From: Haloterrigena gelatinilytica
Lineage (GTDB): Archaea; Halobacteriota; Halobacteria; Halobacteriales; Natrialbaceae
DNA length: 64,000 nucleotides
Assembly: GCF_013342145.1 (NCBI RefSeq)
Contig: NZ_JABUQZ010000001.1
Coordinates: forward strand, 372,001 to 436,000
Direction of reading: 5' to 3'
The position numbers and the translations under genes are program-made. Positions 7,612-37,460 of the stretch are shown here, piece after piece. Each line of letters begins with the position of its first letter. The first letter of the stretch is position 1. The notes beneath the pieces were generated by a model. The model had not been told where the DNA came from and did no database searches. It was given only the letters and a program-made list of their open reading frames with translations.

Positions 7612-7650
7612 CTTTTGCAGCCGCTGTCGAAGAACTGCGGCAGAGATAGC

Positions 7651-8829
7651 ATGGAAAACGATGTAGAATCACGACTCCGCGCCCACCTCCTCTCGGTCAA
7701 GGAGGATCTGATGACGGGCGTGTCGTTCATGATCCCGTTCGTGACGATCGGCGGGATCTTCCTCGCGCTCGCGTTCATGGTGGCGGAGCTGCCGTGGACG
7801 GCCGGCAACACCGAGACGGTGTTCGAGGAGACGGGCTCGATCGCGTGGTACATGGCCCAGATCGGCGATCTCGGGCTGACGATTATGATCCCCGTCTTGG
7901 GCGGGTACATCGCGTACGCGGTCGCGGACAAGCCCGGTCTCGCGCCCGGGTTCATCCTCTCGTGGGCGATCCAGCAGGAGGCGATCATCGAGGCCGCCGG
8001 CCTGGTCATCGGATTCGAAGCCGACGGAGCCGCCGCCGGCTTCCTCGGGGCGATCGTCGCCGGGCTGCTCGCCGGCTACGTCGCTCGCTGGATGAAGGGA
8101 TGGTCGGTGCCGTCGGTCGTCTCCCAGATGATGCCGATCCTCGTGATTCCCGTCTTCACGACGCTGCTGCTCGCCCCGATCGTCATCCTCGGACTCGGCG
8201 TCCCGATCGCCATGATCGACGACGCGCTGACGTCCGCGCTCGAGGGGATGCAGGGGTCGAACGCCATCCTGCTCGGGGCGATCCTCGGCGCGATGATGGC
8301 GGTCGACATGGGCGGCCCGATCAACAAGGTCGCGTACGTGTTCGGGACCGTCCTCGTCGCGGACCAGATCTTCGCGCCGATGGCCGCCGTGATGATCGGC
8401 GGGATGGTCCCGCCGCTGGGCCTCGCGCTCTCGAACTTCATCGCGCCCCAGAAGTACTCCGCGGAGATGTACGAGAACGCGAAGGCGGCCGTCCCGCTCG
8501 GCCTCGCCTTCATCACCGAGGGAGCGATCCCATACGCCGCCGCCGACCCGCTCCGGGTGATTCCGTCGGCAGTTCTCGGCAGCGCGACGGCCGGCGCGGC
8601 CGCGCTCTGGCTCGGCGTGACGATGCCGGCGCCCCACGGCGGCATCTTCGTCGTGATCCTCTCGAGCAGCGCGCTGCTGTTCCTCGCCTGCATCGCGCTC
8701 GGAACGGCGGTCACCGCGACGGTCGCCACGCTGATCAAGCCCGACTACCACGAGCGCGTCGCCGGCGCCGAACCAGCGAAATCCGTAACCGATTCCGGAC
8801 AGACGAACGCAGGACAGACGAACGACTGA
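7651..8829 (+). CDS. ptfC: fructose PTS permease, EIIC component
   Basis: Membrane channel that carries fructose across while EIIB phosphorylates it to fructose-1-phosphate. The 392 residues have about nine hydrophobic helices. The fructose-IIC hallmark FITEGAIPYAAADPLRV is near residues 288-304, followed by the PAPHGGIFV motif. Another conserved segment is AVDMGGPINKVAY. A TTG at 7615 would add 12 residues, but that stretch overlaps the promoter repeats, so I use ATG 7651, after which the family N-terminus (RLRAHLLSVKEDLMTGVSFM) follows. It is separated from pfkB by a 111-bp regulatory region. Confidence 0.93.
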   Translation: MENDVESRLRAHLLSVKEDLMTGVSFMIPFVTIGGIFLALAFMVAELPWTAGNTETVFEETGSIAWYMAQIGDLGLTIMIPVLGGYIAYAVADKPGLAPGFILSWAIQQEAIIEAAGLVIGFEADGAAAGFLGAIVAGLLAGYVARWMKGWSVPSVVSQMMPILVIPVFTTLLLAPIVILGLGVPIAMIDDALTSALEGMQGSNAILLGAILGAMMAVDMGGPINKVAYVFGTVLVADQIFAPMAAVMIGGMVPPLGLALSNFIAPQKYSAEMYENAKAAVPLGLAFITEGAIPYAAADPLRVIPSAVLGSATAGAAALWLGVTMPAPHGGIFVVILSSSALLFLACIALGTAVTATVATLIKPDYHERVAGAEPAKSVTDSGQTNAGQTND

Positions 8830-8874
8830 CTCCCCGACGCAACCCTCACCGTTCAACACCATAGCGATCATACG

Positions 8875-9345
8875 ATGACTGTGTCCGAACCCACGATCGA
8901 CGCCGTACTGACCCCCGAACTGATCACGCTCGAGGAACCGCCCGAAGAGAAGGCGGCCGCGATCGAGTTCCTGCTCGACCGCGCGGTCGACGCCGGCCGG
9001 GTCACCGACCGCGAGGCGGCCCTCGAGGCGCTGCTCGCCCGCGAGGAGGAGACGACGACCGGCGTCGGTATGGGAATCGGCATCCCGCACGCGAAGACCG
9101 ACGCGGTCGCAGAGCCGACCATCGTCTTCGCGCGCTCCTCGGCCGGCATCGACTTCGACGCGATGGACGGCGAGCCGGCGACGCTGCTGTTCATGCTGCT
9201 CGTCCCCGCCGAGGGCGGCGAGGACCACCTCGAGCTCCTGAGTTCGCTCTCGCGGGCCCTGATGCACGACGACGTCCGCGAGCGCCTCCACGAGGCCGAC
9301 TCGAAGGCGGCGATCGAGGAGACGATCACGGAGGCGGTCGCGTGA
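8875..9345 (+). CDS. ptfA: fructose PTS EIIA component
   Basis: Cytoplasmic phosphocarrier that takes the phosphate from HPr on a histidine and gives it to EIIB. The 156 residues match a single fructose/mannitol EIIA domain. The phosphorylated residue is His72 in GVGMGIGIPHAKTDAV. Starts 45 bp after ptfC and overlaps ptsH by 4 nt (ATG inside GTGATGG), so it belongs to the same operon. It is a stand-alone domain, whereas bacterial FruA or FruB proteins are often fusions. Confidence 0.94.
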   Translation: MTVSEPTIDAVLTPELITLEEPPEEKAAAIEFLLDRAVDAGRVTDREAALEALLAREEETTTGVGMGIGIPHAKTDAVAEPTIVFARSSAGIDFDAMDGEPATLLFMLLVPAEGGEDHLELLSSLSRALMHDDVRERLHEADSKAAIEETITEAVA

Positions 9346-9638
9346 TGGAGCGCACCGTCACCGTGGTCCCCGAGGACGGGCTCCACGCGCGGCCGGCCGC
9401 GAAGTTCGTCGAGACGGCGACCGAGTTCGACGCCGACGTGCGGGTCGCCCCGGCCGACGGGGACGACCCGGTCGACGCGGCGAGCATGCTCGCCGTGACC
9501 AGCCTCGGCGTCGCCAGCGGCGAGGACGTCCGGCTGATCGCCGAGGGCGACGACGCCGAGGCGGCCCTCGACGACCTCGAGGAACTGCTCGCGACGCCCG
9601 AGACCGAGTCCGCGGCCGAATCGAGTTCGGGGACCTGA
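9342..9638 (+). CDS. ptsH: phosphocarrier protein HPr
   Basis: Shuttles phosphate from enzyme I to EIIA. 98 residues. The active-site His14 lies in EDGLHARPAAKFVE, the PTS HPr signature. The second conserved region, DAASMLAVTSLGVASGEDV, contains the serine position that Gram-positive HPr kinase modifies; whether such a kinase exists here is not known. It overlaps ptfA by 4 nt and ends 4 nt before ptsI. The last 10 or so residues are an acidic extension. Confidence 0.95.
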   Translation: MMERTVTVVPEDGLHARPAAKFVETATEFDADVRVAPADGDDPVDAASMLAVTSLGVASGEDVRLIAEGDDAEAALDDLEELLATPETESAAESSSGT

Positions 9639-9642
9639 ACCG

Positions 9643-11364
9643 ATGGCCGCCAACGAGTCCGCACCGCGATCGCACGCGGGAACCGGCGTCACGCCGCTGT
9701 CCGGCGTCGGCAGCGCCGTCTGGTACGATCCGAACGCCGATCTCGAACTCGGCGAGCCGCCGGCGGCCGAAGCGGTCGACCCGGACGCCGAACGCGAGCG
9801 GTTCGAGGACGCCCGCGACCGCGCCCGAGCGGAACTCGAGCGCGAGCGCGAACGGACCGCCGAGCGCGTCGGCGAGGACGAGGCCGCGGTGTTCGACGCC
9901 CACAAGCAGTTCGTCGACGATCCGCAGATCATCGACGGCGTCGAGGCGGCCGTCGACGACGGCCTGCCCGCCGAGCACGCGGTCGACGCCGCCTTCGAGG
10001 ACCCCATCGCGCAGTTCGAGGGGATGGACGGCCGGATGGCCGAGCGCGCCGACGACCTCCGCGACGTGCGGGACCGACTGCTGCGGCTGCTGACCGACGC
10101 GGATCGCGTCGACCTCGCCTCGCTGTCGACCGGTTCGATCCTGCTGGCCGAGCGACTGACGCCGAGCGACACCGCCCAGCTCGATCCCGAGCGCGTCGCC
10201 GGCTTCGCGACGATCGAGGGCGGCCGGACCTCCCACGCCGCGATCTTCGCCCGCTCGCTGGGGATCCCCGCCGTCGTCGGCGTCGGCGACGACCTCGAGT
10301 CGATCGACGACGGCACCGACGTGCTGGTCGACGGCGAGGACGGGACGGTGATCGCCGATCCGACGCCCGACCAGCGCGAGCGCGCGGCCGGCGGTCGCGA
10401 CGTCGAGATTCGCGAGGAGCCGGTCGCGACGGCCGACGGGCGCGCCGTCGAGGTCGCGGCCAACGTCGGTACTCTCGCGGAACTCGAGGGCGCCGTCGCG
10501 CAGGGCGCGGACGGGATCGGCCTCTTCCGGACCGAGTTCCTCTTTCTCGACCGCGAGGCGCCGCCGGACGAGGACGAGCAGTTCGAGGTCTACCGCGAGG
10601 CGCTGGCGGCGTTTCCCGAGGGGCGGGTCGTCGTGCGGACGCTGGACGTCGGCGGCGACAAGCCGATCCCCTACCTCGAGACGCCCGACGCGGACAACCC
10701 GTTCCTCGGCCAGCGGGGGATCCGCCGCTCGCTCGGTCCCGACGCCGACCTCTTCGAGACCCAGCTCCGGGCGCTGTTGCGAGCGGCCGCCGCCGAATCG
10801 GGGACGCTCTCGGTGATGTTCCCGATGGTGGCGACCGTGCCGGAGCTCGAGGCGGCCCTCGAGACGGTCGCGGACGTCGCGGCCGACCTCGAGTCCGAGG
10901 GGATCGAACACGAGCGGCCGGAGCTGGGCGCGATGATCGAGACGCCCGGCGCCGCCTTCATCGCCGAGGAGCTGGCCGAGCGCGTCGATTTCCTCAGCAT
11001 CGGCACGAACGACCTCACCCAGTACGTGATGGCCGCCGCCCGGGAGAACGAGCGCGTCGCCGACCTCCGAGATCCCTGCGAGCCGGCCGTCCTCCGGGCG
11101 ATCGAACGCACCGTCGCGGCCGCCGACGCCGGCGACGCCTGGGTCGGGATGTGCGGCGAGATGGCCGGCGATTCCGACCTGGCGCCGCTGCTCGTCGGGC
11201 TCGGGCTCGACGAACTCAGCATGAGCGCCGTCACGATCCCCGAGGTGAAGGCCGCGATCGCCGACCTCGAGACCGACGCGGCCGAAGCGCTCGCGAACCG
11301 AGCGACCGATGCGGCTACCAGAACGACCGTGTACGAGCACGTCAATACCACCACAGACCAATGA
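9643..11364 (+). CDS. ptsI: PEP-protein phosphotransferase, PTS enzyme I
   Basis: Starts the PTS cascade by autophosphorylating from phosphoenolpyruvate and passing the phosphate to HPr. 573 residues, normal length. N-terminal HPr-binding domain, then the phospho-histidine site at about His198 in GGRTSHAAIFARSLG. The TIM-barrel PEP-binding domain carries GIGLFRTEFLF, VRTLDVGGDKP, FLSIGTNDLTQY and the acid/base cysteine in WVGMCGEMAGD. An N-terminal extension of about 20 residues precedes LSGVGSAVWY. The stop overlaps the ptfB start (ATGA). Confidence 0.96.
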   Translation: MAANESAPRSHAGTGVTPLSGVGSAVWYDPNADLELGEPPAAEAVDPDAERERFEDARDRARAELERERERTAERVGEDEAAVFDAHKQFVDDPQIIDGVEAAVDDGLPAEHAVDAAFEDPIAQFEGMDGRMAERADDLRDVRDRLLRLLTDADRVDLASLSTGSILLAERLTPSDTAQLDPERVAGFATIEGGRTSHAAIFARSLGIPAVVGVGDDLESIDDGTDVLVDGEDGTVIADPTPDQRERAAGGRDVEIREEPVATADGRAVEVAANVGTLAELEGAVAQGADGIGLFRTEFLFLDREAPPDEDEQFEVYREALAAFPEGRVVVRTLDVGGDKPIPYLETPDADNPFLGQRGIRRSLGPDADLFETQLRALLRAAAAESGTLSVMFPMVATVPELEAALETVADVAADLESEGIEHERPELGAMIETPGAAFIAEELAERVDFLSIGTNDLTQYVMAAARENERVADLRDPCEPAVLRAIERTVAAADAGDAWVGMCGEMAGDSDLAPLLVGLGLDELSMSAVTIPEVKAAIADLETDAAEALANRATDAATRTTVYEHVNTTTDQ

Positions 11365-22602: not shown

Positions 22603-22833
22603 CGGTCTCGGTACGCCGCGACGGAAGGAAAGGCTTTCAGCCGCGTCACGGACGGGCTTCGGACGACGTTTCAGGTACCGTACGTAACCGGACCGTTCCG
22701 CTGAGAGACCGGCGGTCGCTTCATTCGTGGTCCGACTTTTTGCCACGGGTCCGTGAACGAAAGCGCATGTGCACCGACTCGCCACTCGAACACTCCGCGT
22801 TCGACACCTCGATCCGCGCTGCGGGTGCTGTCG

Positions 22834-24595
22834 ATGACTGAGTCCGACGCGTATCCCCCGATCGAAGCCTACGGCGTCGTCGGGAACCTCGAGACGTGCG
22901 CGCTCGTCGCGCCGGACGGTTCGATCGACTGGTTCCCGTTTCCCCACCTCGAGTCGCCGAGCATCCTCGCCGCGATCCTCGACGCCGAGCGCGGGGGGCG
23001 GTTTCGGATCGCCCCGACCGACTCCTTCGAGACGGAGCGGCGGCACGTCGGCGATACGAACGTCCTCGAGACGACGTTCCACACCGACGACGGGACGGCG
23101 ACCGTAACGGACTTCCTGCCGCCGGCCGGTCGGACCGACCATCCGAAGAAAGTCCTCTATCGCAAACTCGCCTGCGCAGACGGGAGCGTCGGGCTCGAGG
23201 TCGAACTCGAGCCGCGGTTCGACTACGGCCGCGCGGAGACGTCGATCGAACGGGTCGACGCTCGAGGCGGCCGACGAAGCGTGGTTCATGCTCCGGTGTA
23301 CGGGCGCCGAAGAGGCGGATACGGACCCGGACGCCGCGTTAGACGAGACGATCCAGTTCTGGACCGACCGGGCTCACGACTGCGAGCCCGAGGGCGACTG
23401 CGCGTTCGAGGGACCGTGGCACGACGCGGTCGTTCGCTCCGAACTCGTCCTCAAGCTCCTGACTCACGCCGAGTCGGGCGGGATCGCCGCCGCCCCGACC
23501 ACCTCGTTGCCCGAAGACATCGGCGGCGTCCGCAACTGGGACTACCGGTTCAACTGGCTCCGGGACGCCGGGTTCACCGTCCAGGCGCTGATGAACCTCG
23601 GTACCGCCGACGAGGCGAACGAGTACTTCGACTGGTTCATGGACCTCTGCCAGACCGACGATCCGGCGGCGATCCAGCCGCTGTACGGCCTCCACGGCGA
23701 ATCGACCCTCGAGGAGCGAGAACTGGATCACTTCGAGGGCTATCGCGGGTCCCGTCCCGTGCGAATCGGCAACGGGGCCGCCGAGCAGCGCCAACACGAC
23801 ACCTACGGGGAACTCCTGCTCGCCGTCGACGAGATGCGCCAGTACGGGCGCGAACTGGACGCCGACGAGTGGGTGCGGATCCGCGATATCGTCGAGTACG
23901 TCCGCGAGATCTGGACCGAGCCCGACGCGGGCATCTGGGAGGTCCGCGGCGGAGACGATCACTTCGTCTTCTCGAAGGCGATGTGCTGGAGCGCTCTCGA
24001 CCGGGGGCTCTCGATCGCGATCGACGGGGGCCACGACGCGCCGCTCGAGGAGTGGCGGGACGCTCGAGAGACGATCCGAAGCGACGTCCTCGAGAACGGC
24101 TACGACGACGAGACCGGCGCGTTCGTCCAGTCCTACGGATCGGACGCGCTCGACGCGACCGGGCTATTGCTCCCGGTCGTCGGCTTTCTGCCCTTCGGCG
24201 ACGACCGCATTCGAGGGACGATCGACGCGATCGACGAGCAGTTAGTCGAGGACGAGATCTTCGTACGGCGGTACGACGGCGACGACGGTCTGCCGGGCGA
24301 CGAGGGGGCGTTCGTCCTCTGCTCGTGCTGGCTGATCGACGCGCTCGCGCTCTCCGGGCGCGTGGCGGAAGCGCAGTCCCGATTCGAGGCGCTGCTCGAG
24401 TACCTGAACCCGCTCGGGCTGATCGCGGAGGAGATCGATCCCGAGAGCGGCGCCCACCTCGGGAACTACCCGCAGGCGTTCAGCCACATCGGGATCGTCA
24501 ACAGCGCCCTGTATCTGGGCTACGTTCGCGGGCTCGAGACGTCCGGGCCGGCACCGATGGGGATCCGACTTGGCGACCCGGTCGGTTCGTCGTGA
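22834..24595 (+). pseudogene. glycoside hydrolase family 15 (glucoamylase-like), frame-disrupted
   Basis: Two frames are needed for one protein. Frame 1 from ATG 22834 gives the N-terminal domain (YPPIEAYGVVGNLETCALV, SIDWFPFPHLESPSILAAIL) up to about residue 141 near 23258. Frame 2 continues from about 23258 (TLEAADEAWFMLRCTGAEEAD) to 24595 with the catalytic (alpha/alpha)6 barrel: GGVRNWDYRFNWLRDAGFT, GLHGESTLEE and the catalytic-acid-type LIAEEIDPESG. Some N-domain sequence seems missing at the join, so a small deletion shifted the frame. GH15 enzymes of this type hydrolyse alpha-glucans or trehalose. Unless this is a sequencing error, it is broken. Confidence 0.8.
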
Positions 24596-27017: not shown

Positions 27018-28447
27018 TCAGTTCCCGACCTCGATCGACCCCCGCATGTTCTGCGGATGGACCTGACAGTAGTACTCGCTCATCTCCTCGGTGGCCGTGA
27101 ACGAGACCGTCTGCGTGGTCCCCTGTTCGCGGACGAGTTCGGACGCGAGGAGGTCCTCCCCGTTCGCGTCCTGGATCGCGAAGTTGTGCTGAAGCCCGTC
27201 GCCGTTCTCCCAGCCGAGCGCGTACTCGGTGCCGGCCTCGAGTTGCAGCGTCGGATTCTCCTCGCCCGCGATGGCCTCGGGCGCTGCACCCTGCCACGCC
27301 GACGCCTCGCCGATCAACTGGAAGTCGGCCTCTCCGCCCGTCGTTTCCTCGCCGTCCGTCTCTCCCTCCTCTTGACCGGGGAACTCCCAGTCGTCGAACG
27401 GCCCCTCGACGAGTTCCTCCTGTTCCCACATCGCGTGGATGAACGGCTGGGTCTCGCCGTTCGGCAGTTCCATCGCGGTCGGCACCGGATCGTAGACGGG
27501 CCCCTCGTCGGTCGGATCGGTAACACCACGCCGTGGGTGTGGTGGATCCGCCCCGCGATCGTCTCGTCCGACGCGAGCGGCAGCTCCTCGTCTACGGCCA
27601 TGCGGTACCGCTCGTCGCGGACCGTCTGGGTCGTCATGAAGTGGATGACGCGGAACCCGTCCTCCGTGGCTACCTCTCCGTTGACGTGGACGTTACCGAC
27701 CCTCCACGACGCGCCGTAGGTGTACGCCTGCGGAAATAGCGGCGATCCGGTTCCCGTGATCCCGTGCAGCCAGCCGCCCGACAGCACGCCACCGCCCGTC
27801 TCGTAGCCCGGAATCGGGGGTTGGACGACGTGGTCGTGCTCGAGTTCGTACTCGTTGCCCGCCGGATCGGTGAACTGCGCCTCGAGGTCGACCACGTCGG
27901 ACGTATCGCCCGGTTTTCCGGGGAGGTCGTACGGTTGCCGGTCCCCGTAGGTGATCTCGAACGCGCCGCTGGTCACCTCGGCCTCGTCGCTGTACAGCGT
28001 CGGTTCGGTGAATCGTTCCTGCGCGATCCCGGCCGACTCACCGTCCTCGATCGGTTCGCGGGCCGCCTCCGGTGCGGCCACCAGCGGCGGCAGGTCCTGC
28101 AGGAGCTGCGGGATGGCCTCGTCCAGCGGTTCGGGGAGCCCCTTCGCCTGTTCGATGCGGGACTCGAGCAGATCGCTTCCCCGCCGCGGGGCGTCCGACG
28201 TTCCGAACACCTGCGGACTCAGTCGCCGTTCGCCGGGAAGCACCCAGTAGACCGCGTTTCCCGACTCCTGTCGCACCGTGACGTCTCGGCTCGAGTCGGC
28301 GGATCCACCGCCCTCCTCTTGCCGGGTGACCGTCGATCCGTTCGCTGCTCCGACACCGCCGACGAGCGCCCCGAGCGTCGTCGCGCCGCCGGCCGCGAGC
28401 ATCGATCGCCGCACCACGCCGTCGTTCGAATCGTTCTTGTTTGCCAT
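27018..28447 (-). pseudogene. Tat-exported cupredoxin-domain protein, frameshifted
   Basis: The N-terminal frame (ATG 28447) begins with a Tat signal, VRRSMLAAGGATTLGALVGG, and covers a large unassigned region (ERRLSPQVFGTSDAPRRG, QPPIPGYETGGGVLSGGWLH) to about 27525. There it reads IHHTHGVV and then goes out of frame. The other frame continues as TDPTDEGPVYDP into a plastocyanin-like domain ending 27018, with the type-1 copper ligands His (LQHNFAIQ), Cys-His (YYCQVHP) and Met (QNM). A 1-nt insertion or 2-nt deletion near 27525 separates the halves. Together they would form an approximately 470-residue copper protein of unknown role. Confidence 0.78.
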
Positions 28448-33461: not shown

Positions 33462-36400
33462 ATGAGTCGGCGTCGAGGCGCGGCCGTAGCGGTGCTCGCC
33501 GTCGCCGCGCTGCTGGTCACGAGCGCGGTGGCGCTGCCGCTGCTCGGCGGCGGCATCGTCCCGTTCGAGGGCGGCGAGAGCGCTCCCGGCGAGGGAGACG
33601 ACGGAACGACCGATATCGCCGCTACGGACAGTGTGGCCGCCAGCCAAGACGATGGCAGTGGGAGTGCGGACTCCACCGCGGCTGATGCGGCGGACCGAGA
33701 ACCCGTGCGTGCGAGCCAGTCGGTCGGAGACGGCGAGTTAGTGTCGTTCGACTCCGCGGCCGAATCGGCCGCGACCGACGCAGAAGCGAACGCCGACGCG
33801 GACGCGACCGCCTCGCTCGCACAGGAACAGACGGACGCCGTCGAGGCCGGCGTCGACGAGGGGATCGAACTGGCCCAGCAGCAGGGCGTCGAGGTGACCC
33901 AGGAACAGCGCGCGGCGGCCGTCGAGGCCGCCAGTCAGTCGGCGGCCCAGCACCAGGCGGCCGACGTCGAGCAGATTCAGGCGGCGACGGCCGGCGCGGT
34001 CCACGGCTCGCTGATCCAGTCTCAGGACGCCGAGATCGAACAGATCCAGTCCGCGGTCGGCGGCGCGACCGACGGCGCGCTCGCCCAGTCTCAGACGGTT
34101 GCAGCGAGCCAGATGCAGAGCGCGACCTGGGGGGCGACCCACGGCGCCCTCGCACAGAAACAGCGCGCCGACGTCGACCAGATCCAGGTCGCCACGCGCG
34201 GGGCCGCAGCGGGGGCGTGCCGGGAAGCGGGCGATAGCGACGTTCGGGACCACCCGAAGACCCAGGAGGCCGCGCAGGGGGCGGCCTACGGCGTCCTCGA
34301 GCAGTACCAGAAGGTCACCGTCGAACAGCGCCAGCGGATCACGCTCGAGCACGTCCAGCACGCGGCGGCCGGCGCGTCCGCGGGGGCGCTCGAGGGGAGC
34401 GTTCCGGCGGCCCTCGAGGGCGAACAGAGCCAGGAGATCAGCGTCGAACAGCGCCAGCGCGTGAACATCAAGCAGGTCCAGAAGGCCGCCACGGGCGCCG
34501 CGAAGGGCGCGCTCGTCCAGCGACAGGAGGTCTCCGTCGAGCAGACCCAGGCCGCGGCCCGCGGGGCCGGCCGGGGGTCGCTGACGCAGATCCAGACCGT
34601 CAGCGTCGAACAGGTCCAGCGGATCTCGATCACCCAGATTCAGGAGGCCTCGTTCGGCGCGGCCAAGGGAGCGATCTATCAGAGCCAGTCGGCCACCGTC
34701 GAACAGATCCAGGCGGCCGCCGACGGGGCCGCGGGCGGCGTGCTGGTCCAGCACCAGGAGATCTCGATCACCCAGATCCAGTCCGCCGCGGTCGGCGCGT
34801 CCGAGGGAGCGATCGAGTCGGCAGTTCAGTACCAGATCGCCGAGATCGAACAGATTCAGGCCGCCGCGTTCGGCGCCGGCGAGGGGGCGGTGCTCCAGCA
34901 GCAGGTCGTCGATATCACGCAGGTCCAGCGGCTGGCCTCCGGCGGCGCGAGCGGCGCGCTGAGCCAGTCTCAGTCGGCGACCGCCGAGCAGATCCAGATC
35001 GCCGCCAGCAGCGCCTGTCGGGAGACGGCCCGCGTTGTCCAGTACCAGCGGATCAGCGTCACACAACTTCAGGCCCTGACCCAGGAAACCGCGTCCGACG
35101 CTACCGCGTACGCGATTCAGCAGGGAATCGACGACGTCTCCGAACTCGGGCAGTACGTCGAGGAGGTGGCCGAAGAGCGCGCCGACGAGATCGACGAACT
35201 CGAGGGAACGGCGTCGATTGCGTTCGCCGACCGAGAGAGCAACGGTGAGGCGGTCACCGTCGACGAACTCGACCTCTCGGAGGGCGGCTTCGTCGCGGTC
35301 TACGCGGCCGACGCCGTCGCCGATCCGGGCGCCGTGCTCGGGACCTCGAGCGCCCTCGAGGCCGGGAGCCACTCCGACGTCGAGATCGACCTCGAGGAGC
35401 CGATCGAGGAGGACCAGCCCCTCACCGCGGTGGTCCACCACGATACGAACGACGACGGAACGTTCGAGTACGGCGACACTGACGGGGCGGAGGACGTCCC
35501 GTACGTCACCGACGCCGGCGTGCCGGTGCTCGACACGGCGTTCGTCTCGGTCGGCGACGAACCGCAGGTGCCTCAAGAGCCGCAAGAACCGCAGGAACCG
35601 GCCGAGCCGAACGCGACGCTCTCCGTCGCCGATCAGGCCGGCGACGGCGAGACGCTCGTCGTCGACGAAGCGAACGCGAGCGTCGACTACACCGTGACGG
35701 CGACGGCCGACGGGACGACGGCCGAGAGCCAGCCGTTCGAGGCCAACGGGACGGCGACCGACCTCGAGCTCGCGTTCGACTCGCCGCTCGAGGAGTCGAC
35801 GACCGTCGACGTCGCCGTCGCCGACGAGAACGGCACGGAACTGGCGACCGAATCGATCGAGTACGCGCTCGAGGACAACGAGTCGGACGGCGAGCCGAAC
35901 GAATCGGATGCGACGCTCAACGTGTCCGACCAGACGGGCGACGGCGAGACGCTCGTCGTCGACGAGGCGAACGCGAGCGTCGACTACCGGCTCACCGCGA
36001 CCGACGAGAACGGCACGCAGCGCGCGGAGAGCGAGACCTTCGAGGCCAACGAGACCGCCGAGTTCGAGGCACTGGAGCTCGAGCCGCCGCTCGAAGAGAA
36101 CGCGACGCTCGAGGTCGCCGTGGCCGACGACGCGGGCGCGGAACTCGCGACCGAGTCCGTCGAGTACACGGTCGACGGCGATCCGGCGACGTTCGAGGCG
36201 ACGTTCCCTCGCTGTTCGCAGGCCGAGGTGACCGGGTCCTTCGAAGACGGCGACAGGATCATCGTCGGCACCGCGTTCTACGAAAGCGGCGGCTTCGGCA
36301 ACTCGATGGGCGAGTACGCCGTCACGGTCGGCGAGGACGTCGAGGCGCCGTTCGAGGGGACGATCACCTACGAGACCGGCGACGACTTCACCGTCGCCGA

Positions 36401-37460
36401 GACGGCCGACGGCGCGACCGTCACGGTCCCCGAGGGCGATACGGGCGCCGTGATCACCGGCTTCGCCTCCCCCGATGCGACGCCGGGGTCGATCGACTAT
36501 CCGAACCCGAACGCTAGCGAGTGTCTCGAGGAGATCCGTCCCGAACGGCCGACCATCAGCGTGGCGGAGACGACGGCGACCGAGGACGGCATCGCGGTCA
36601 CCTTCGAGTACGAGAATCCGAACGAGGAATCGCTGGCGGTCGGCAGCGAGTTCGTCGAGGGAACCGCGGACGACGAGCCGCCGTCGGAACTCGAGCCCGG
36701 CAACGACTCGTTCACCGTCGACTGGACGCCCGAAACCGACTCCGAACGGCTCGTCTGGGAGGTCGATATGAGCAACTACGACTACGAGGAGCCGCTGATC
36801 GCCCAGACGGAGCCGGCCGGCGAGATCGATTCGACCGAACCGGCCGATCCCGCGGCGTTCACCGTCTCGATCGTCGGGACGAACGCGCCCGTCGAAGCGG
36901 GCGAGCCCCTCGCGGTCGACGCCGACCTCGAGAACACCGGCGGAGAGAACGGTACGCAGGACGTCGAACTCGCGATCGACGGCGCGGTCGTCAACGAGAC
37001 GCCCGTCTCGCTCGCGCCCAACGAATCCGAACTCGTGACGCTGGCCGCCGACACGACCACGCTCGAGCCCGGCGAGTACCCGGTTACCGTCTCGAGCGAG
37101 AACGAGACCGCCGAGACGACCGTGACGATCGAGGAAGCCGAGGCCGCGGAGACGCCGACCGGCACGGAGTCGACGGCGGACGGTCAAGCGGACGCGGAAC
37201 CGACCGCGGACGCTGACGAACAGCCGTCGAACGCGACCGCCGAGCAGCCGACGGAGGAACAGACCCCGTCCGAAGACGCCGTCTCGTCGGAGTCGGCGGA
37301 TTCGGAGCCGACGACGGACGGCTCATCGACGGAATCCGAACCGGAAGCGCCGACGGGAACGGAGACGACCGAATCGCCCGCCGGAACGGACGAACCGCCC
37401 GTTTCCGACGGAGCCGGTTCGGAGGCCGACGCGAACGGCTCCGCGGTCGCGACGGAGTAA
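33462..37460 (+). CDS. secreted glutamine-repeat surface protein, 1332 residues
   Basis: The start SRRRGAAVAVLAVAALLVTS is a Sec signal. After an acidic stretch, about residues 140-555 hold some 15 repeats of 23 residues (some with an 8-residue extra strand): x-V-x-V-x-Q-x-Q-x-AA-x-GA-x-x-GAL-x-Q-x-Q. This could form a beta-solenoid or stacked fibre. About 580-690 is a DUF7282-type domain (SIAFADRESNGEAVTVDEL). Two approximately 88-residue modules follow (TLSVADQAGDGETLVVDEAN and TLNVSDQTGDGETLVVDEAN), then more beta domains and a CARDB-like one (SIVGTNAPVEAGEPLAVDA). The last 100 residues are Thr/Ser/Glu/Pro rich. I see no PGF-CTERM anchor. Function is unknown; a structural or adhesive surface role is likely. 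Confidence 0.8.
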   Translation: MSRRRGAAVAVLAVAALLVTSAVALPLLGGGIVPFEGGESAPGEGDDGTTDIAATDSVAASQDDGSGSADSTAADAADREPVRASQSVGDGELVSFDSAAESAATDAEANADADATASLAQEQTDAVEAGVDEGIELAQQQGVEVTQEQRAAAVEAASQSAAQHQAADVEQIQAATAGAVHGSLIQSQDAEIEQIQSAVGGATDGALAQSQTVAASQMQSATWGATHGALAQKQRADVDQIQVATRGAAAGACREAGDSDVRDHPKTQEAAQGAAYGVLEQYQKVTVEQRQRITLEHVQHAAAGASAGALEGSVPAALEGEQSQEISVEQRQRVNIKQVQKAATGAAKGALVQRQEVSVEQTQAAARGAGRGSLTQIQTVSVEQVQRISITQIQEASFGAAKGAIYQSQSATVEQIQAAADGAAGGVLVQHQEISITQIQSAAVGASEGAIESAVQYQIAEIEQIQAAAFGAGEGAVLQQQVVDITQVQRLASGGASGALSQSQSATAEQIQIAASSACRETARVVQYQRISVTQLQALTQETASDATAYAIQQGIDDVSELGQYVEEVAEERADEIDELEGTASIAFADRESNGEAVTVDELDLSEGGFVAVYAADAVADPGAVLGTSSALEAGSHSDVEIDLEEPIEEDQPLTAVVHHDTNDDGTFEYGDTDGAEDVPYVTDAGVPVLDTAFVSVGDEPQVPQEPQEPQEPAEPNATLSVADQAGDGETLVVDEANASVDYTVTATADGTTAESQPFEANGTATDLELAFDSPLEESTTVDVAVADENGTELATESIEYALEDNESDGEPNESDATLNVSDQTGDGETLVVDEANASVDYRLTATDENGTQRAESETFEANETAEFEALELEPPLEENATLEVAVADDAGAELATESVEYTVDGDPATFEATFPRCSQAEVTGSFEDGDRIIVGTAFYESGGFGNSMGEYAVTVGEDVEAPFEGTITYETGDDFTVAETADGATVTVPEGDTGAVITGFASPDATPGSIDYPNPNASECLEEIRPERPTISVAETTATEDGIAVTFEYENPNEESLAVGSEFVEGTADDEPPSELEPGNDSFTVDWTPETDSERLVWEVDMSNYDYEEPLIAQTEPAGEIDSTEPADPAAFTVSIVGTNAPVEAGEPLAVDADLENTGGENGTQDVELAIDGAVVNETPVSLAPNESELVTLAADTTTLEPGEYPVTVSSENETAETTVTIEEAEAAETPTGTESTADGQADAEPTADADEQPSNATAEQPTEEQTPSEDAVSSESADSEPTTDGSSTESEPEAPTGTETTESPAGTDEPPVSDGAGSEADANGSAVATE
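33880..35125 (+). repeat. about 15 tandem 69-bp coding repeats
   Basis: DNA unit of about 69 bp encoding the Gln-rich motif described for the enclosing gene, with common codons GAACAGATCCAG or GTCGAGCAG and GGCGCGCTC. Units are divergent at the DNA level, so this is an old repeat array. Three or so units carry an additional 24-bp insert coding for an extra strand. Confidence 0.75.

Follow-up and report, generated by a model that had tools for sequence, protein, structure and literature searches.

The window analysed here, a stretch of 64,000 nucleotides from the genome of Haloterrigena gelatinilytica, contains on its forward strand a gene for a protein of 1332 residues, the features of which are listed in Table 1. 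That the frame codes for protein is supported by 28 full-length homologues and by omega values of 0.24–0.28 for the repeat region in the close ones; the closest named match is from Haloterrigena salina, in which the repeat region is 93% identical. Both the gene and its approximately 23-residue Gln/Ala/Gly repeat are confirmed as real. That the irregular unit near residue 250 results from a frameshift was ruled out, as the stretch CREAGDSDV is kept in congeners and the spacing is kept in relatives. The gene is present in a single copy in this genome, as in most of the family Natrialbaceae.

Table 1. Features of the repeat-protein gene (positions are those of the window).
Feature	Residues	Positions	Strand	Basis
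Complete coding sequence	1–1332	33462..37460	+	ATG start; open frame; homologues along full length
Predicted Sec-type signal peptide (or signal anchor)	1–24	33462..33533	+	Hydrophobicity; xVALPLLGGG motif conserved in homologues
Acidic low-complexity linker	25–117	33534..33812	+	Net charge −0.22 per residue; length not conserved
Predicted α-solenoid, ~18–19 helices of roughly 15–22 residues	118–578	33813..35195	+	AlphaFold2, 64 sequences
Thirteen canonical 23-residue units, [VI]EQIQxAAxGAAxGALxQxQxV[ST]	169–530	33966..35051	+	Unit scoring
Conserved row H181, W/F/Y223, H227, Y/F276 on alternate helices	181–276	34002..34289	+	Cross-family conservation
DUF7282 (PF23951)	584–695	35211..35546	+	E 4.9e-35, 120.5 bits versus cut-off 27
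Degenerate DUF7282-like module 1	718–796	35613..35849	+	E 1.9e-4, under gathering cut-off
Degenerate DUF7282-like module 2	817–897	35910..36152	+	E 9.7e-4, under gathering cut-off
Cys-containing haloarchaeal domain	905–1026	36174..36539	+	Also present in two further exported proteins encoded by the genome
CARDB domain (PF07705)		36861..37121	+	Scanned alone: E 1.6e-5, 25.5 bits versus cut-off 22.7
Acidic T/E/P/S-rich tail without hydrophobic anchor		37182..37457	+	Hydropathy and charge

The N terminus is hydrophobic and has a VxA-like site, as judged by inspection of the sequence and from the motif in homologues, and the predicted signal may be cleaved after VxA, before LPLLGGG. This export-type N terminus, computed from the sequence, indicates that the protein is probably exported by the haloarchaeon. 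There is no Cys near the N terminus that could belong to a lipobox. At the other end, neither an NCBIfam match to a PGF-CTERM/archaeosortase sorting signal nor a hydrophobic segment was found (the maximum KD17 over the last 45 residues is −0.01). Anchoring through PGF-CTERM or as a lipoprotein was therefore ruled out. A preliminary description of this DNA had read the protein as secreted, with neither kind of anchor, and had assigned to its C-terminal part a DUF7282-like domain, two paired modules and a CARDB-like domain. Most of this stands: the DUF7282 domain is unambiguous and the CARDB domain lies above the cut-off when scanned alone, while the paired modules are present but prove to be degenerate DUF7282-like repeats that fall under the Pfam cut-off. 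The protein therefore has one clear and two degenerate copies of DUF7282, of which relatives in other families have up to three. No paper on DUF7282 was found and the family is uncharacterized; the 461-residue solenoid described below is not part of it.

The repeat region extends overall over residues 146–550. Thirteen units, starting at residues 169, 192, 215, 238, 295, 336, 359, 390, 413, 436, 462, 485 and 508, score higher than any of 200 shuffled versions of the protein, and the spacing between strong units is mostly exactly 23 residues. Because the scoring matrix was derived from the same protein, this count shows the register and is not an independent P value; independent support comes from conservation in relatives. 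Approximately three divergent units, near residues 146, 265 and 531, flank or interrupt the strong ones. Gln accounts for 17% of residues 118–560 compared with 2% elsewhere in the protein. The solenoid is also near-neutral, with a net charge of −0.06 per residue, in contrast to the other parts of the protein (−0.22 to −0.28 per residue) and to most neighbouring soluble proteins.

Searches of Pfam, PHROGs and PDB sequences with the repeat region returned no family match (the PDB profile search was taken up to E 10), and among the named helical-repeat families (TPR, HEAT, ARM, Sel1, TAL and others) none gave a Pfam or PDB profile match to it, a result that concerns these named subfamilies rather than the fold class. 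The whole protein has no match in NCBIfam. Literature on secreted and surface repeat proteins of haloarchaea, in an incomplete paper library, yielded nothing on the repeat among the papers listed. The repeat family thus seems to be undescribed. A phage origin was ruled out: a relative gave a single PHROG match, which was not significant, and BFVD gave no significant match.

The fold of residues 118–578 was predicted with AlphaFold2. From 64 sequences the model is all-helical, with no strand, at a pLDDT of 88.4 and a pTM of 0.90; an earlier run with 29 sequences was also helical throughout the repeats, with its centre at low confidence. There is one predicted helix per unit, beginning at the unit start and ending near position 18. 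Two features of the alignment agree with this assignment. The residue preceding each unit is Ser, Thr, Asp or Asn in 86% of cases (17% background) and the residue before that is Val, Ala or Ile in 98%, the pattern that helix N-caps with a hydrophobic staple would show. Further, alignment deletions are approximately 12 times rarer per site at unit positions 1–18 than in the linkers. The tandem helical units of the model pack into a continuous array, as is characteristic of an α-solenoid, and the repeat region is likely to be a new α-solenoid of single-helix repeats; how the superhelix is shaped and where its faces lie are inferred. Some doubt about the helical fold remains, because the QxQ stretches, which inserted octads such as VEQVQRIS make longer, alternate strictly, in a β-like manner, over ~15 residues, and because an entropy-periodicity test did not discriminate between α and β: it singled out no helix (p ≃ 0.3) and its spectrum peak, at 160–170°, is not significant.

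These results bear on the remaining claims of the preliminary description. Its estimate of about 15 units of 23 residues with regularly spaced Gln is borne out by the 13 strong and roughly three divergent units, and its view that the repeat belongs to no described family agrees with the searches of Pfam, NCBIfam, PHROGs and PDB, where the match to a characterized repeat family that it had named as counter-evidence did not appear. It had also called for a structure prediction, which returned helices rather than disordered coil. Its suggestion of a β-solenoid, on the other hand, is not supported by the two all-α predictions, with which the helix caps and the placement of insertions and deletions agree. 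Its other suggestion, a fibre, suits the fixed, position-specific array and the conserved His/aromatic residues described below less well than a specific scaffold does.

When the model was compared with known structures using Foldseek, the strong matches were to generic helical repeats only. The best, the designed flat repeat FD15 (PDB entry 8ugc; E = 2.5e-5), is alike in its stacked helices but differs in that its unit is a helix pair, where the present unit is one 23-residue helix; there is no sequence match to it. TM-scores are low (≤0.20, normalized by the query), so the predicted superhelix is without a close solved match. A local 3Di and sequence resemblance to TAL-effector repeats (dHax3 structures; E ≃ 2e-4, 17–19% identity) comes with TM-scores of ≤0.13 and no PDB-sequence profile match. 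The TAL-effector unit comprises 33–35 residues, two helices and a DNA-reading diresidue, in contrast to the 23 residues and single helix of the present unit, and the present protein is secreted and archaeal. Homology to TAL effectors was ruled out, the structural resemblance being weak and sequence support absent, and the likeness is read as convergence on a helix-repeat pattern.

The repeat was found in 123 of 392 genomes in an order-wide sample, including 80 of the 96 from Natrialbaceae; a phylum-wide sample gave no match outside the order. Within Natrialbaceae the array is colinear, mostly single-copy and at the same locus, with omega of ~0.25. Units at equal positions are 0.71 identical between species, compared with 0.34 between units of one protein. 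This position-wise orthology of the units marks the array of Natrialbaceae as old and fixed, and a recent expansion was ruled out. The genes bioY, bioM and bioN adjoin the gene at 27 of the 28 orthologue loci examined (the exception is locus L057), and together with DUF7545 and DUF5799 they flank nearly all Natrialbaceae orthologues examined. They are absent beside relatives in other families, and the neighbourhood reads as vertical inheritance and synteny; no functional link to the biotin transporter BioYMN, DUF7545 or DUF5799 was drawn from it.

At least four further haloarchaeal families have relatives that differ in the number of repeats, in length and in their C-terminal modules; a β-helix, TSP3 plus CAP, CARDB and DUF7282 are all found joined to the solenoid, and some proteins have a C-terminal membrane segment. 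In one of them (locus L155, 8143–15018) the solenoid is combined with calcium-type TSP3 repeats, a CAP domain and such a membrane segment. Two distant relatives (L066, 9562–11229, and L158, 8215–10818) have a truncated N-terminal block and twin-arginine-type signals, so that in some members the solenoid may cross the membrane in folded form. At L144, in a reading frame from 9147, residues ~227–274 form six tandem octads QNVTVEQx, a shorter repeat lying within the 23-residue one. In one other family (L147, L148, L151 and L159) the solenoid gene has a shared neighbourhood that includes a multi-pass membrane protein resembling a presenilin-type protease.

Comparison across families also reveals a row of conserved His and aromatic residues. 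H181 is kept in 26 of 29 sequences from Natrialbaceae and in 17 of 21 from elsewhere, and H227 in 27 of 29 and in 18 of 18; Y276 is kept in 28 of 29, with 12 Tyr and three Phe among the 15 sequences from elsewhere, and residue 223 is mostly aromatic (Trp, Phe or Tyr). H181, H227 and Y/F276 all occupy unit position 13, on alternate helices, and the intervening helices vary at this position in other families. This alternation, which owes nothing to AlphaFold2, is consistent with helices stacked in two layers. The row is confined to the N-terminal half of the solenoid and suggests a conserved surface site, putatively a binding surface.

The function of the solenoid is inferred from these observations. 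The likeliest role, given the fixed array and the conserved His/aromatic row, is that of a docking or binding scaffold, and the retention of the solenoid while the C-terminal modules are swapped, some with a membrane segment, is as expected for a scaffold at the cell surface. We therefore favour, with a probability of about 0.5, a surface-associated extracellular docking scaffold that is a new α-solenoid and not a fibre subunit. The constant part of the protein would be an extracellular α-solenoid of single-helix 23-residue units, each helix starting at an [ST/D/N]-[VI]-E-Q cap, running through AAxGAAxGAL and ending at QxQ before a short loop, with Gly10 and Gly14 letting neighbouring helices pack closely. 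Stacked in this way, the helices would form a rigid, nearly neutral rod with every second helix exposed on one face, and a partner or ligand may bind to the His/aromatic row of its N-terminal half. The DUF7282 and CARDB β-sandwich modules, with the acidic tail, could form a stalk or spacer within the salt-filled S-layer space.

Other roles can be envisaged. As the solenoid is nearly neutral, assembly is kept as a live alternative: Gln/Ala-rich solenoids might pack laterally or join end to end at high salt, as a self-assembling α-helical fibre or sheet that forms a matrix or sheath. A charge so far below that of the rest of the protein is unusual for an exposed halophilic protein, the protein has no C-terminal anchor and the weak Foldseek matches include designed helical-repeat fibres. 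However, a simple polymer would need neither unit-specific conservation, nor a fixed number of units, nor a gene that is single-copy in most members of the family, nor a His/aromatic row in the N-terminal half, and we regard a fibre as doubtful. We consider it unlikely that the solenoid is a novel type of extracellular helical polymer module, the almost uncharged single-helix Gln/Gly units of which assemble in saturating salt as an α-helical surface matrix peculiar to haloarchaea, with the His/aromatic row as an assembly or metal/ligand site.

The protein could instead be a passive spacer, held by an uncleaved N-terminal signal anchor and lifting the C-terminal β-domains through the S-layer. 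The hydrophobic N-terminal segment followed by the conserved LPLLGGG would suit such a stalk, as would C-terminal domains that vary among families on a constant helical part. Against it, the Natrialbaceae arrays do not vary in repeat number, as spacers usually do, and His/aromatic surface positions are conserved across families; this reading, too, is unlikely. Curli (CsgA) amyloid repeats have units of ~22–23 residues with regularly spaced Gln, as here, and the strict QxQ alternation, the octads (six in succession at L144) and the nonsignificant spectrum peak could be taken to indicate a β-solenoid or curli-like amyloid with Gln ladders, AlphaFold2 having been misled by the Ala-rich sequence, but two helical predictions, the cap signature, the indel placement and the lack of a Pfam curlin match or any Pfam or PDB match to a β-solenoid family make this the least probable reading.

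The protein thus represents an apparently undescribed repeat family, conserved in most of the sampled Natrialbaceae genomes and in at least four other families, with a confidently predicted fold that lacks a close solved counterpart. To our knowledge, extracellular α-solenoids in archaea are little documented. A near-neutral solenoid in saturated brine also raises the question of how exposed proteins remain in solution, or assemble, when their surface is not acidic.

Three other features of the window were noted. A reading frame at 22753–24595, presumably of the glycoside-hydrolase-15-like (glucoamylase/trehalase) type, seems to be split between two frames around 23170–23290, which may reflect a frameshift or a sequencing error. 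On the reverse strand, 27314–28447 encodes an exported-type protein with a Tat-like N terminus, the sequence of which becomes dissimilar and Arg-rich close to the C terminus; this change may also result from a frameshift. Finally, 7615–11364 encodes a PTS-type EIIC-like membrane protein and an enzyme-I-like protein, as named from reading of the sequence, which suggests a sugar phosphotransferase system.
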